Part shown: positions 5,989 to 51,678 of the stretch, piece by piece
Layout of the letters: every line of letters begins with the position of its first letter
Position numbering within the stretch: the stretch's first letter is position 1
Source of the DNA: Spongiibacteraceae bacterium
Lineage (GTDB): Bacteria; Pseudomonadota; Gammaproteobacteria; Pseudomonadales; Dasaniaceae
Direction of reading: 5' to 3'
DNA length: 64,000 nucleotides
Assembly: GCA_030621845.1 (NCBI GenBank)
Contig: JAUXHA010000001.1
Span: 1-64,000, forward strand
The notes under the pieces: model-generated
Database searches by the model: none
What the model saw: the letters and a program-made list of their open reading frames with translations, nothing else
Told to the model about the DNA's origin: nothing
Position numbers and translations under genes: made by a program

Positions 5989-6029
5989 GGCCCGCAGAGA
6001 ACGCTTGCCATTATTCAGAGGTGCCCTAG
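5984..6029 (+). repeat. Reduced copy of MITE-like repeat (CTAGGGC...GCCCTAG)
   Basis: Bases 6005-6029 match the right arm of the 102-bp element at 51510-51611 at 24 of 25 positions, beginning TTGCCATTATTCAGAGGTGC. The left side keeps only the outer CTAGGGC (5985-5991), the inverse of GCCCTAG at 6023-6029, with a 31-base interior. It looks like an internally deleted copy. It spans the djlA stop codon and lies between the convergent djlA and Lrp-type genes. Confidence 0.7.
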
Positions 6030-42764: not shown

Positions 42765-42804
42765 GAACTACGATTGTCGTCGTTAACATTCCAGTTATTG
42801 GAAA

Positions 42805-42829
42805 TTGCCATTATTCAGAGCTGCCCTGG
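42805..42829 (+). repeat. Solo arm of MITE-like repeat
   Basis: This is a 25-base match to the right arm of the 51510-51611 element (23 of 25 to the copy at 6005), running from TTGCCATTATTCAGAG to CTGCCCTGG. I see no left arm nearby. It is 41 bases after the polA stop. Confidence 0.6.
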
Positions 42830-47075: not shown

Positions 47076-47762
47076 ATGATGAGGAGTTCGACCAGTAACA
47101 AGGGCCCACGGGGATCAATCCTGGTCTTGGCCATAATCAAACTTAGTTTTCTTTGTCTTGTTTTTTCCGCTCCCGCTAACGCGGCACTGGTTTCCCAGGA
47201 CCACGCCAACTGGGGCGCTGGCAGTATTACCCTGGATACCGATACCGGCCTGCAGTGGCTGGATGTGGATCGCTCCGTGAACTACTCCTATAACAGCATG
47301 CAGGCTGCACTGGGTGATGGCGGCAGCTATGCCGGTTTTCGTTACGCCAGCCAGAGTGAGGTTGAGGCGCTGTTTATTAATGGTGGTGTGCCCGATGTCA
47401 ATTCTGGCTCGGCGGCCAATGTTGACCCTGCGCTTGAGTTGCTAGCGCTGCTCGGAGCCACCTACGACTTCAGGGGTAATGAGGAGCTTTTTGGTATTAC
47501 CGGCACCGCCAGTGCAGGCGGTATGGCATCGGGTACTATCGATCATTTCTTATCCAGTGGTATTGATTCTTATAGTGTCACTACGCTAGGCGCTGTATAT
47601 GGGCTGAACTACAGTGCTGATTCTATTGGTAATTGGTTGGTGGTAGATACCGCTGCCATTCCCGTCCCTCCTGCCTTTTTGCTTTTTAGTTCAGCACTGG
47701 GAGTGCTGGCTTGCCTGAGGCGCCGATCAAGGTATCAACCCAAGTCTTCCTTAAAAATTTAG
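47076..47762 (+). CDS. PEP-CTERM-type surface protein
   Basis: This 228-residue exported protein has a signal peptide (hydrophobic ILVLAIIKLSFLCLVFSAPA). The body holds the pattern LQWLDVDRSVNYSYNSM and GFRYASQSEVEALF that is frequent in PEP-CTERM proteins. The C-terminus has the sorting signal: VPPAFLLFSSALGVLACL followed by RRRS. The tail continues eleven residues beyond the arginines, which is unusual. Exosortase would cleave it in the envelope, but no exosortase gene is in the window. An AGGAG site precedes the start. Confidence 0.8.
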   Translation: MMRSSTSNKGPRGSILVLAIIKLSFLCLVFSAPANAALVSQDHANWGAGSITLDTDTGLQWLDVDRSVNYSYNSMQAALGDGGSYAGFRYASQSEVEALFINGGVPDVNSGSAANVDPALELLALLGATYDFRGNEELFGITGTASAGGMASGTIDHFLSSGIDSYSVTTLGAVYGLNYSADSIGNWLVVDTAAIPVPPAFLLFSSALGVLACLRRRSRYQPKSSLKI

Positions 47763-47792
47763 TCCAATTGCATCTGTGAGAGGGCTGCTCTG

Positions 47793-49574
47793 ATGACGTC
47801 TATAATTCGTTTAGTATCGGTTATTTGTTTTTCCTGCTTGCTGCTGGCCTGCAGTGTTGAGAGCGGTGGTGGTGGAACAACAGGAACCTCGAGCAACGGT
47901 TTTTTACCCGGAAATGAACCTGTTGATCCGGGCAAGCCCGCGGAGCCAGGCAAACCGGTGAATCCGTTACCTCCCGTCGCCGGTAATTGCGTAGATCCCA
48001 TCGATATTCATTCGACGATTCTCTCTAATGGTTTTGGCTTTAACCCGTCGAATACACGCAACCAGTCTTCGGCGATCAACAGCAGCAATGTGGCGGATTT
48101 GGCGCGCAAGTTTGAATACGTAAAGCCTGGCCTGATCCAATTGCGTGGCGCAGCAGCAGTTACTGAGCAGGCAATCTTTTTTACTGCGGGTAATGAGCTT
48201 ATCGCTATTGATCGAGACAGCGGTTGTCGTTATTGGGTTTACCAGGCTGCAGGTGCCGGGGAAGGCTTTACCGCTGCCGCTATTTTACTGGCAGCGATAC
48301 CCGGGCAGGACCCGGTAATTTTTGCCGGTGATTTCAACGGCTTTGTCTATGCCATCGACATGCAGTCGGGTGATTTATTATGGAAACAATTTGCCGGGAT
48401 TACTGGTGATAGCAAAAGCGAATTCAATCATTTTATTACTGGCGGAATGCAATACGATAATGGCCAACTGTTTGTGCCAGTTTCCTCTAAAGAAATTGTT
48501 AGCAACTTGCTGGATCTTGATAACCCCTGCTGTGTAACTCACGGTTTATTGGTGGCGTTTGATGCTTTGACGGGGGATAGAAACTGGACTTTTCACACCA
48601 CACACGCCGCTACAATCGCCAGCGATATTTACCGCATAGGTCCTAATGGCGCGGCAATTGATTCAACGCCAGTTATTGATCCCGCGCGCAATGCAATTTA
48701 TATCAGTACCGGAGCAAACTATACCGAGCCGGTGAGTAATCTCTCCGACGCGATTGTTTCAATTGATATGACGAATGGCGGATTAATCTGGGTTTTTCAG
48801 GCGCGTGATGATGACCAGTGGAACGCTTCATGCCATTTTCCCGATCAGCAGATTGATGTCAACGGAGAGATGCACAATATCTATGATCGCTGTCCCGACC
48901 CCGAGGGTTCGGCTTTCGGTTTTCGTGCAGCACCTATTTTGACCGATGATGGCAATGCGCTGATTGCTGGAGATAAAGGGGGCACCGTATATTCTCTCGA
49001 CCCTGATAGAGGTGATTTAAACTGGATACAAAAGGTCAGCACTGGTGGCATGCTGGGTGGTATTCATTGGGGCATGGCGGTTGATGAATGGGCTGTCTAT
49101 GTTGCGGCGACGGATTTGACCATTGCGAAAGCCAGCGCCTTTGATGATTCGGTTGAGAATAGGATAGAGCCGGTTGCGGATGCCAGGCCCGGTATTTATG
49201 CGCTGGATCTTAGAACCGGTGGCCTGGTGTGGGAGACGCATCCCACACATGAGGGACTGGGTGGCTCAGTGCCGTCACTGTACTCGGCATCCCTGTCGCT
49301 GAGTAATGATGTGCTCTTTGCCGGGTCGCTTGATGGTGTGGTAAAAGCCTTTTCGACGCTAACCGGCGCCGAGTTGTGGTCCCTGGATACTGCGATTGCT
49401 GTCACCGATGTGAATGGTGTGGAAGGCAACGGTGGCGCTATTGATTCGGTGGGCGTGGTGATTGCTGGCGATACGTTGTTGGTCAATTCCGGAGCGGGTT
49501 CGTTTGACTTGGCAGGCCAGTCCCAGGCGGGGCAGGGCGGCGTCCTATTCCTGTTATCCTTGCCGGAAATTTAA
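47793..49574 (+). CDS. PQQ-type beta-propeller lipoprotein (polyvinyl-alcohol-dehydrogenase-like)
   Basis: This 593-residue protein has a lipoprotein signal (LLLACSVESG, lipobox LLAC) and a Gly/Pro linker with PGKP repeats (about 35-62). Its beta propeller shows seven tryptophan-docking motifs, such as AIDMQSGDLLW, AFDALTGDRNW, SIDMTNGGLIW and ALDLRTGGLVW. The segment DDQWNASCHFPDQQ and a vicinal Cys pair (NPCCVTHG) resemble PQQ-dependent alcohol dehydrogenases of the polyvinyl-alcohol type, but I see no heme CxxCH. It is probably periplasmic and membrane-tethered. Cofactor binding is inferred. Confidence 0.8.
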   Translation: MTSIIRLVSVICFSCLLLACSVESGGGGTTGTSSNGFLPGNEPVDPGKPAEPGKPVNPLPPVAGNCVDPIDIHSTILSNGFGFNPSNTRNQSSAINSSNVADLARKFEYVKPGLIQLRGAAAVTEQAIFFTAGNELIAIDRDSGCRYWVYQAAGAGEGFTAAAILLAAIPGQDPVIFAGDFNGFVYAIDMQSGDLLWKQFAGITGDSKSEFNHFITGGMQYDNGQLFVPVSSKEIVSNLLDLDNPCCVTHGLLVAFDALTGDRNWTFHTTHAATIASDIYRIGPNGAAIDSTPVIDPARNAIYISTGANYTEPVSNLSDAIVSIDMTNGGLIWVFQARDDDQWNASCHFPDQQIDVNGEMHNIYDRCPDPEGSAFGFRAAPILTDDGNALIAGDKGGTVYSLDPDRGDLNWIQKVSTGGMLGGIHWGMAVDEWAVYVAATDLTIAKASAFDDSVENRIEPVADARPGIYALDLRTGGLVWETHPTHEGLGGSVPSLYSASLSLSNDVLFAGSLDGVVKAFSTLTGAELWSLDTAIAVTDVNGVEGNGGAIDSVGVVIAGDTLLVNSGAGSFDLAGQSQAGQGGVLFLLSLPEI

Positions 49575-49742
49575 CATAGATTCATCAATGGCTGCTTGAA
49601 CGGTGAGCCGCTGAAAAGTTTTTTTCTCCTGTTCTTCGATACAAAAATGACGGTCTTGTAAAATAATAGCCGAGGGGGTTAAATGAGAACCCTTTACTAC
49701 GGCCCCTTTTCTGTTGTGTGGATTAAACTGGAGAAAATCGTC

Positions 49743-51500
49743 ATGCCCTGGTTACGCTTTTTCGCCTGTACGGTTGTTAGCCTGGTCGCGTTGGTTTCCT
49801 ATACCCATGCAGCAAGTGTTCAGGGGCTGGTGCGTGATAGCAGCGGCGAAGCCATTGCTCATGCCATGGTCACTTTTCGTCATACCGGGCTTGGTAAATC
49901 GATAACAGTTTACAGTGACGACAGCGGCCATTACCAGCTTGAACTTAAAGACAGTGGTGACTATTCTTTGCGCGCCCGTCGTATCGGTTTTAATACGGTG
50001 ATGGAGACCGCTATTAGTATTACCCGGCAGTCGTTGTTGGATAAATCCATTACGCTTAAACCGGTACCCAAAAGCCAGTGGGTGTATGAGCTCCCCGCCA
50101 GCGACTGGTTTGCGCGCGCTGAATTTTCATCCCCTGAATTGCGTGGTCAGTTCGCCATTCAGTGTGCCATGTGTCACCAGCAAGGCAGTAGCACTACACG
50201 GCTAGCCCGCAGTGATGAGGAGTGGCATAAGCTCTTTAATATGATGGGTGAGTACGGTGCGGTGATGAGCCAGGCTTTGTATGACGAGGCGCCTGGCGTG
50301 CTGAACAGAGCCTATGACTTTGCCAACATCGATCTGGCTACTTTTCCCGATACGCCACTGGCTAAATACAGTGGCGAGGTAATAGTTACCGAATGGGAGA
50401 TCGGCGATGCCACGGCCTTTCTGCATGATATGGTGGTTGGGCCCAAGGGCATCATTTACAGCGTCGATTGGATTAACGATAAACTTTATGGATTGAATCC
50501 CGATACTAATGAGATCCATGAGTGGCCGGTTCCCATCGGCGATTTGCCGCCAGGTGGAATCCTTGGCGCTTTGTCAGAGCGTGGTCGTCGCTACCTGCAT
50601 CATACGCCCACGGTAGCGCCACACAGTTTACAGCTTGGACCTGATAATAAGATTTGGATGACGCTTTCCGTTGGTAAGGGCCTGGCCAGCTTTGACCCCG
50701 AGAGCGAAAAATTTACTACATTCGATCATCCCGACCGGGTGAAATACCCGCATACGTTGCGCTTTGATAACGAGGGCAACGTCTGGTATACGGTCTCGAT
50801 GACCAATCATCTGGCAAAATTCAATCTCGAAAATCAACAGTTCACTATTTATGATTTGCCGACACGAAATTTCACCCAATGGGCACTGGCTCGAAGTATG
50901 GGCATGTTGATTTGGGCCAGTAATACCTTTGGCTTTAAGCCGCAGGCGGTGGTTGCCGATCCGGAGATGAGCCCGGTACCCTATGGCATCGATATTACGC
51001 CGGATGGAAGGGTCTGGTTTAGCCAGTTTAATAGTCGTCGTATCGGCAACATTGACCCTGTTACAGAAGTTATCAGCATGGTGGATACGCCTTTTTTGGG
51101 GCCTCGTCGATTACGGGCCGACAGTCAGGGCCAGTTGTGGATACCGTCTTATAATAGTGGTGCGTTTTATCGCTACAGACCCAGTGATAACAATTTCAAG
51201 GAATACCATATACCCACAGGCGCAGGCGATATGGTATATGCGCTGGCCATTGACCCGCGCGATGACAGTGTGTGGCTATGTGGCACTAATTCCGACAGCA
51301 TGATTCACTTTCAACCGGCCAGCGAAAGTTTTGAGGTTTTCCAACTGCCGACACGGGTGAGCTTTACTCGCGAACTGGAAGTGGATGAGCAGGGTAATGT
51401 GTGGACCAGTATCTCCAATATGCCTTTTTATCAAGTTGAGGGTATGCGCGGTAAATTACTTCGCCTGTCTTTTCCCGATGCGGCGTCAGCGCCAAATTAA
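49743..51500 (+). CDS. Streptogramin-lyase-like propeller with CarboxypepD domain and heme c motif
   Basis: From the ATG at 49743 (GGAG nine bases upstream) the protein has 585 residues. It has a signal peptide ending near YTHAA, a carboxypeptidase-type regulatory beta-sandwich (about 25-105: VQGLVRDSSGEAIAHAMV), a CxxCH heme c site (QCAMCHQQ, about C140-H144) and a seven-blade propeller of Vgb/NHL type (repeats like PHTLRFDNEGNVWYTVS and PYGIDITPDGRVWFSQF). The heme site suggests electron transfer rather than antibiotic lysis. It follows the PQQ-type lipoprotein and ends 10 bases before a MITE-like element. Confidence 0.82.
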   Translation: MPWLRFFACTVVSLVALVSYTHAASVQGLVRDSSGEAIAHAMVTFRHTGLGKSITVYSDDSGHYQLELKDSGDYSLRARRIGFNTVMETAISITRQSLLDKSITLKPVPKSQWVYELPASDWFARAEFSSPELRGQFAIQCAMCHQQGSSTTRLARSDEEWHKLFNMMGEYGAVMSQALYDEAPGVLNRAYDFANIDLATFPDTPLAKYSGEVIVTEWEIGDATAFLHDMVVGPKGIIYSVDWINDKLYGLNPDTNEIHEWPVPIGDLPPGGILGALSERGRRYLHHTPTVAPHSLQLGPDNKIWMTLSVGKGLASFDPESEKFTTFDHPDRVKYPHTLRFDNEGNVWYTVSMTNHLAKFNLENQQFTIYDLPTRNFTQWALARSMGMLIWASNTFGFKPQAVVADPEMSPVPYGIDITPDGRVWFSQFNSRRIGNIDPVTEVISMVDTPFLGPRRLRADSQGQLWIPSYNSGAFYRYRPSDNNFKEYHIPTGAGDMVYALAIDPRDDSVWLCGTNSDSMIHFQPASESFEVFQLPTRVSFTRELEVDEQGNVWTSISNMPFYQVEGMRGKLLRLSFPDAASAPN

Positions 51501-51509
51501 CAGCTATAT

Positions 51510-51611
51510 CCTGGGCACCTCTGAATAATGGCAAACGCAGCAGCTGTGCCCTTCTGGTCACGCCCTTCGGAGCCTCCAGAGAGTATTTGCCATTATTCAG
51601 AGGTGCGCTAG
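51510..51611. mobile_element. 102-bp MITE-like element with 21-bp perfect inverted arms
   Basis: The left arm at 51515-51535 reads GCACCTCTGAATAATGGCAA plus A and is the exact reverse complement of 51586-51606. The outer edges are CCTGGG and GCGCTAG, and the interior is about 50 bases with no frame. Relatives of the arm occur at 6005-6029 and 42805-42829. Small size, inverted ends and lack of a gene fit a non-autonomous element. CTAG at the ends of two copies suggests a 4-bp target. It lies just after a stop codon and would form a strong RNA hairpin. Confidence 0.75.
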
Positions 51612-51678
51612 CTATGAGGGTGGCTCAGCCAGGGTTAATAATGTGCTGGAACTTGTTTTGTTTTGATCAGGAATAAAT

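Follow-up and report, generated by a model that had tools for sequence, protein, structure and literature searches.

Vgb-like propeller proteins that carry a heme c attachment motif (hereafter heme-Vgb) are linked to PQQ dehydrogenases in other genomes, both by recurrent neighbourhoods and by gene fusions, and electrons would presumably flow between the two partners. One member of each family is encoded in the stretch of DNA analysed here, a window of 64,000 nucleotides, as the second and third of three consecutive genes. We consider it about evenly balanced that they belong to a partnership of quinoprotein and heme-Vgb that has been little described, of which the window form is divergent and may lack the cofactor, and that the first gene, for a PEP-CTERM-like protein, is a passenger. 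A wider reading, which we offer tentatively and regard as somewhat unlikely in its entirety, is that across Pseudomonadota and Myxococcota periplasmic quinoproteins have heme-tagged Vgb propellers as dedicated partners, a widespread and undescribed class whose own pocket serves catalysis or electron relay, and that the window quinoprotein has become cofactor-less.

Three exported proteins and their genes

A sequence-only reading of this DNA had noted three consecutive same-strand genes for exported proteins, and this was borne out, with all three open reading frames intact on the + strand. Their features are as follows (PVADH, polyvinyl-alcohol-dehydrogenase):

47076-47762, +: exported protein of 228 aa with a PEP-CTERM-like C-terminus, intact ORF (tail at 47658-47732)
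47793-49574, +: PVADH-like lipoprotein of 593 aa, an eight-bladed PQQ-dehydrogenase-type propeller without heme (by Pfam matches, alignment and model)
47850-47852, +: lipobox Cys20 (LLAC), read from the sequence
48492-48494, +: Glu234, kept; its counterpart in quinohemoprotein alcohol dehydrogenases is the pocket Glu
48660-48662, +: Asp290, replacing a near-invariant pocket Trp (relatives: Trp 44/45, Tyr 1/45)
48714-48716, +: Ala308, replacing Glu/Gln (relatives: Glu or Gln 45/45)
48813-48815, +: Asp341, kept; at the position of the catalytic Asp by alignment
48975-48977, +: Lys395, an invariant pocket Lys by alignment, kept
49683-51500, +: protein of 605 aa with a CarboxypepD_reg domain, a heme c segment and a Vgb-like seven-bladed propeller (alternative start 49743)
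49815-50057, +: CarboxypepD_reg domain, residues 45-125 (PF13620, 52.6 bits)
50163-50177, +: CAMCH (residues 161-165), the CxxCH motif for heme c attachment (no variation in 37 aligned homologues)
50244-50246, +: Met188, candidate sixth heme ligand (invariant in 37 homologues)
50364-51476, +: Vgb-like propeller, residues 228-598 (VIA-align Z to streptogramin B lyases)

The PEP-CTERM-like gene is followed by the PVADH-like gene (gene 2) after 30 bp, and gene 2 by heme-Vgb after 108 bp, or after 168 bp when counted to an inner ATG at 49743, a start that gives the heme-Vgb protein a normal signal peptide. In a scan around the trio, promoter- and terminator-like matches were at chance level. The exact PEP, PQQ and heme-Vgb trio was found nowhere else among 391 genomes of the order or 80 sampled heme-Vgb loci; outside the window there was only the PEP-PQQ pair (in genome G004) or PQQ families together with heme-Vgb. 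The earlier proposal that all three genes are linked drew no support from their neighbourhoods, and a conserved three-gene operon was rejected.

Between heme-Vgb and a gene for an AhpC/TSA lipoprotein lies an interspersed inverted repeat (51506-51615) with perfect 21-nt arms, GCACCTCTGAATAATGGCAAA, which looks like a MITE. Single arms of this repeat occur at 6004-6024 and 42804-42824, and the arm has 26 matches in its own genome at two mismatches or fewer, as compared with none for a reversed-pattern control.

The C-terminal tail of the first protein, IPVPPAFLLFSSALGVLACLRRR, displays the motif, the hydrophobic stretch and the Arg cluster, and so the PEP-CTERM tail described earlier is right in form; by the VPLPA-CTERM model (TIGR03370), however, it is sub-threshold, scoring 14.2 bits against a curated cut-off of 25.35. 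No exosortase was found in the source genome (G000, a draft that is 84% complete), and exosortases are present in the relatives G004, G006, G002, G076 and G471. The sole close homologue of the PEP gene (49% identity) lies in G004, where the gene 2 orthologue immediately follows it after 47 bp; heme-Vgb is missing there, and a TonB-dependent receptor gene comes next. Since this close homologue adjoins the gene 2 orthologue, the PEP and PQQ genes appear to form a small unit of their own, to which heme-Vgb is an additional gene. Weaker homologues of the PEP gene, in G006 and G076, are located away from the gene 2 orthologue. We regard the PEP-CTERM gene as probably a passenger, standing outside the redox pair.

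The product of gene 2 has a signal peptide, a lipobox cysteine and PQQ_2/PQQ matches above the Pfam cut-offs, and its 593 residues contain no CxxCH motif and hence no cytochrome c domain of its own (such a domain is present in the PVADH-type proteins of Sphingopyxis 113P3 and Haliea), in full agreement with its description as a tethered PQQ-alcohol-dehydrogenase-like propeller lacking heme. The fold predicted for it by AlphaFold (pLDDT 80) is that of an eight-bladed PQQ-dehydrogenase propeller, matching PDB 4mh1, 7wmk, 1yiq and 6zcw with Z ~32 over 420-440 residues. Because BamB-like and designed propellers reached similar Z scores, over fewer residues, the fold alone is no proof of a dehydrogenase. 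Comparison of gene 2 with its G004 orthologue gave differences of 0.28, 0.22 and 0.58 at codon positions 1, 2 and 3, respectively, and this excess at the third position, together with the intact frame, suggests that selection continues to act on gene 2 and that it is not decaying.

As for the third protein, the claim of a second propeller bearing a CxxCH site proved correct, and an N-terminal CarboxypepD_reg domain that had been overlooked was added to it. The Vgb_lyase family (PF24684) matched at 93.8 bits against a cut-off of 50, and the AlphaFold model (pLDDT 87.5) aligned with the streptogramin B lyase structures 2qc5, 2z2n, 2z2o and 2z2p at Z 34.5-35.2 in VIA-align, where the next matches stood at 28.6. 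Given that composition alone predicts 0.0007 CxxCH motifs in this protein, and that the motif and Met188 are both invariant in the 37 homologues, the motif is not a chance occurrence. With C161, C164, H165 and M188 all invariant, the protein has the CxxCH and candidate axial Met of a putative c-type cytochrome; it has no Pfam cytochrome match. Membership of the streptogramin resistance lyases Vgb(A)/Vgb(B) was rejected, with scores of 51.1 and 43.7 bits against a cut-off of 600. In the family tree the window protein forms a long branch (2.44) and falls with the heme-Vgb proteins that have GDH-like partners, outside the clade with PVADH-like ones. A class-wide profile search with A1, covering 369 genomes, yielded only two further genomes at 1e-40, and in a plasmid collection heme-Vgb was matched no more than weakly (28% over 44%).

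The cofactor pocket and PQQ supply

To describe the pocket of the gene 2 product we aligned it with 46 relatives, one of which lacks a residue at these columns, and so the counts are given out of 45. Two substitutions, W290D and E/Q308A, are unique to the window protein among the 46. In an alignment with PDB 1kb0, 1kv9 and 1yiq, position 290 corresponds to a conserved Trp and position 308 to the Asn that follows TG, residues known in quinoprotein dehydrogenases to form the floor beneath PQQ and to bind the metal, respectively; the Sphingopyxis 113P3 protein (locus L192) has Trp and Asn at the equivalent positions, and Asn at the latter is likewise found in MDH-type enzymes. The set of residues that make up the PQQ/metal pocket (Glu, Trp, Glu/Gln/Asn, Asp and Lys) is therefore incomplete in the window protein. 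His425, Trp426 and the Cys246-Cys247 pair are kept alongside Glu234, Asp341 and Lys395, and so some cofactor binding could still occur.

Elsewhere in the gene 2 subfamily, Ser takes the place of the pocket Glu in relatives from G471 (L173:9053-10702) and G076 (L051:9354-11006), which in this alignment would be another sign of pocket change.

Neither pqqB nor pqqE was found in the 84%-complete draft G000, and the complete genome G004, holder of the closest gene 2 orthologue, likewise has no pqqE. This gene is present in G002, G076 and G471; in the latter two, gene 2 orthologues adjoin PQQ biosynthesis genes, and one of the G471 orthologues carries hemes of its own. The missing pqq genes of the draft may reflect assembly loss, or the host may scavenge PQQ. 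Lack of PQQ synthesis would not amount to lack of PQQ use, since G000 has further quinohemoprotein alcohol dehydrogenases, on contig C87 and at the ends of C71 and C42. These two contig ends (L177:3-974 and L179:36-1448, respectively) hold overlapping parts of a quinohemoprotein alcohol dehydrogenase sequence, which suggests that the assembly broke within a gene of this kind or that a repeat is involved.

Heme-Vgb neighbourhoods and fusions

A scan of a genome collection with an 11-row profile gave 180 confirmed heme-Vgb loci, 80 of which were sampled. A PQQ-dehydrogenase gene lay nearby, within the fetched DNA, in 31 of the 80, on the same strand in all but one of these (30) and in many of them overlapping or less than 100 bp away; more than half of the sampled loci had no PQQ gene nearby. 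Among the 47 loci with full flanks (at least 4 kb on each side), 24 had a PQQ dehydrogenase within ~4 kb, compared to ~1 expected under a rough null that assumes eight PQQ propellers per 4-Mb genome, the loci being related to one another. Most commonly the neighbouring gene encodes a GDH-like dehydrogenase resembling TIGR03074 (e.g. in L098, 728.7 bits), and 11 of the 31 PQQ-bearing loci, those of Haliea salexigens, Pseudoteredinibacter isoporae and Zhongshania antarctica among them, additionally hold a PVADH-type quinohemoprotein. In 10 loci a small cytochrome c is encoded one or two genes downstream of heme-Vgb.

In two gammaproteobacterial MAGs a single protein (L118, 1,217 aa; L133, 1,205 aa) runs from heme-Vgb through a second cytochrome c to a PVADH-type propeller, and the propeller of L118 has an intact pocket (VWTTP, TAQN, GDIWN). 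In a further locus, L147, the first two parts of the fusion are visible before the contig ends inside the second cytochrome. These fusions of L118 and L133 are the strongest evidence that the families of genes 2 and 3 work together. Co-occurrence of heme-Vgb with PVADH-like genes across 77 relative genomes was not significant (5 shared, p = 0.09). The recurrent neighbourhoods and the fusions make genes 2 and 3 plausible partners by family.

Two other kinds of gene were seen at these loci. A small lipoprotein (~181 aa; L106:2328-2882) and its homologues, lacking any Pfam or NCBIfam match, adjoin heme-Vgb in 16 loci, and in loci of the Pseudoteredinibacter type (L126, L127 and L142) an exported protein of 337 aa whose start resembles glyoxalase/VOC is encoded between heme-Vgb and the dehydrogenase.

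Proposed mechanism, alternatives and known systems

We propose that the families of genes 2 and 3 constitute a periplasmic or outer-membrane quinoprotein module. In intact systems the PQQ dehydrogenase would oxidise its substrate, and the heme-tagged Vgb propeller would serve as its dedicated c-type cytochrome partner, with the CxxCH motif and the invariant Met as likely heme ligands. The window lipoprotein, two of whose PQQ/metal pocket residues are lost, probably holds no PQQ or binds it abnormally, and may act as an 'empty' surface propeller with a binding or scaffold role. It would feed electrons to the window heme-Vgb only if it still works; the source may alternatively be another quinoprotein of the cell, with the quinohemoprotein alcohol dehydrogenases of C87 and C71/C42 as examples. 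Gene 2 and the PEP-CTERM gene probably share a transcript, but the PEP-CTERM protein would stand outside the redox pair. The idea of a dehydrogenase passing electrons to a separate heme protein, put forward in the sequence-only reading, thus survives at the level of the families, by their neighbourhoods and fusions, but is weakened for the window copy, whose role as electron donor is doubtful because Asp and Ala replace two pocket residues and no PQQ synthesis gene (pqqB or pqqE) was found in G000.

Three other explanations were weighed. Adjacency of gene 2 and heme-Vgb could be due to chance, such that the PEP and PQQ genes form a conserved two-gene unit and heme-Vgb merely lies downstream with a promoter of its own; the G004 pair, with a TonB-dependent receptor gene in place of heme-Vgb, the 108-168 bp before heme-Vgb (several times the 30-bp PEP-PQQ gap) and the confinement of the trio to the window all fit this, yet the two families come together time and again in other genomes, with fusions in two MAGs, and we hold it to be rather unlikely. 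That the window lipoprotein is instead an active PQQ dehydrogenase, delivering electrons to the heme of the adjoining Vgb protein, also draws on this linkage and fusion, as well as on the retained catalytic Asp and pocket Glu and on the gene 2 orthologues that adjoin pqq genes in G076 and G471; moreover, a G471 orthologue has its own hemes, so that the window form, having none, would depend on another protein as acceptor. The W290D and A308 replacements and the failure to find pqqB and pqqE in G000 speak against such activity, which we regard as unlikely.

A third possibility places the chemistry in the Vgb-like propeller itself, which would act as an enzyme (a lyase, lactonase or oxidoreductase) on the product of the dehydrogenase, using its heme as a redox centre. 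Residues at the rim of its pocket are invariant in the 37 homologues (H248, H314, Y434, R475 and R563) or nearly so (H357), PDB 2z2p is titled as a catalytically inactive H270A variant, and by rotating the alignment register the conserved His of adjacent blades, H314 and H357, can be brought opposite the two blades of 2qc5 that bear His, a register that is just one of several; on the other hand, the Glu that follows 'WFT' is missing from all seven window blades, and we give this enzyme little credence.

Under the preferred reading, a divergent and possibly cofactor-less quinoprotein next to a heme-Vgb partner, the window form raises the question of whether a quinoprotein can lose its cofactor yet be kept. 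The partnership lends itself to direct tests through the L118 and L133 fusions and the three-gene operon of Haliea salexigens, a cultured species. The name 'virginiamycin B lyase family' would lead such genes to be misread as antibiotic-resistance-like, when many of them sit in quinoprotein clusters and carry a heme motif.

Judging by titles and the opening lines of abstracts, we recognised no open-access paper as describing a heme-Vgb/quinoprotein module. Its parts compare with known systems as follows. The window heme-Vgb shares with streptogramin B (virginiamycin B) lyase Vgb a seven-bladed fold (Z ~35) and a PF24684 match above cut-off, but it adds the CarboxypepD_reg and heme segments, lacks in all seven blades the Glu found after 'WFT' in Vgb lyases, and reaches 51 bits where resistance-type Vgb(A) calls for 600. 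Membrane-type PQQ dehydrogenases (TIGR03074; glucose/quinate/shikimate), here without the membrane domain, resemble the usual heme-Vgb neighbours, that of L098 matching PF01011 over its full length; the L098 protein nevertheless scores 728.7 bits, below the cut-off of 832.65, and the window has no such gene. The acido-empty-quinoprotein group A (TIGR04528) sets, in its name, a precedent for propellers that resemble quinoproteins yet have no PQQ site, although the window protein matches it weakly (56.6 bits, far below the 650-bit cut-off) and belongs to another subfamily.

The closest parallel for gene 2 is the pva operon of Sphingopyxis sp. 113P3, which encodes a PVA dehydrogenase, an oxidized-PVA hydrolase and a cytochrome c (PMC4611681) and is placed on both the megaplasmid and the chromosome by the genome paper (PMC4611681). 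At L192 (NZ_CP009453.1 142594-154063), a plasmid record of this strain, we found a hydrolase, a PVADH-like quinohemoprotein and a c-type cytochrome, a gene content by which this cluster would be the published operon. Its cluster differs from the window in having a hydrolase and no Vgb propeller, and its dehydrogenase in having an N-terminal heme and an intact Trp and Asn, whereas the window lipoprotein is heme-less with an altered pocket; the two have in common a PQQ propeller of the PVADH type, 31% identical over 529 columns, that is clustered with a c-type cytochrome.
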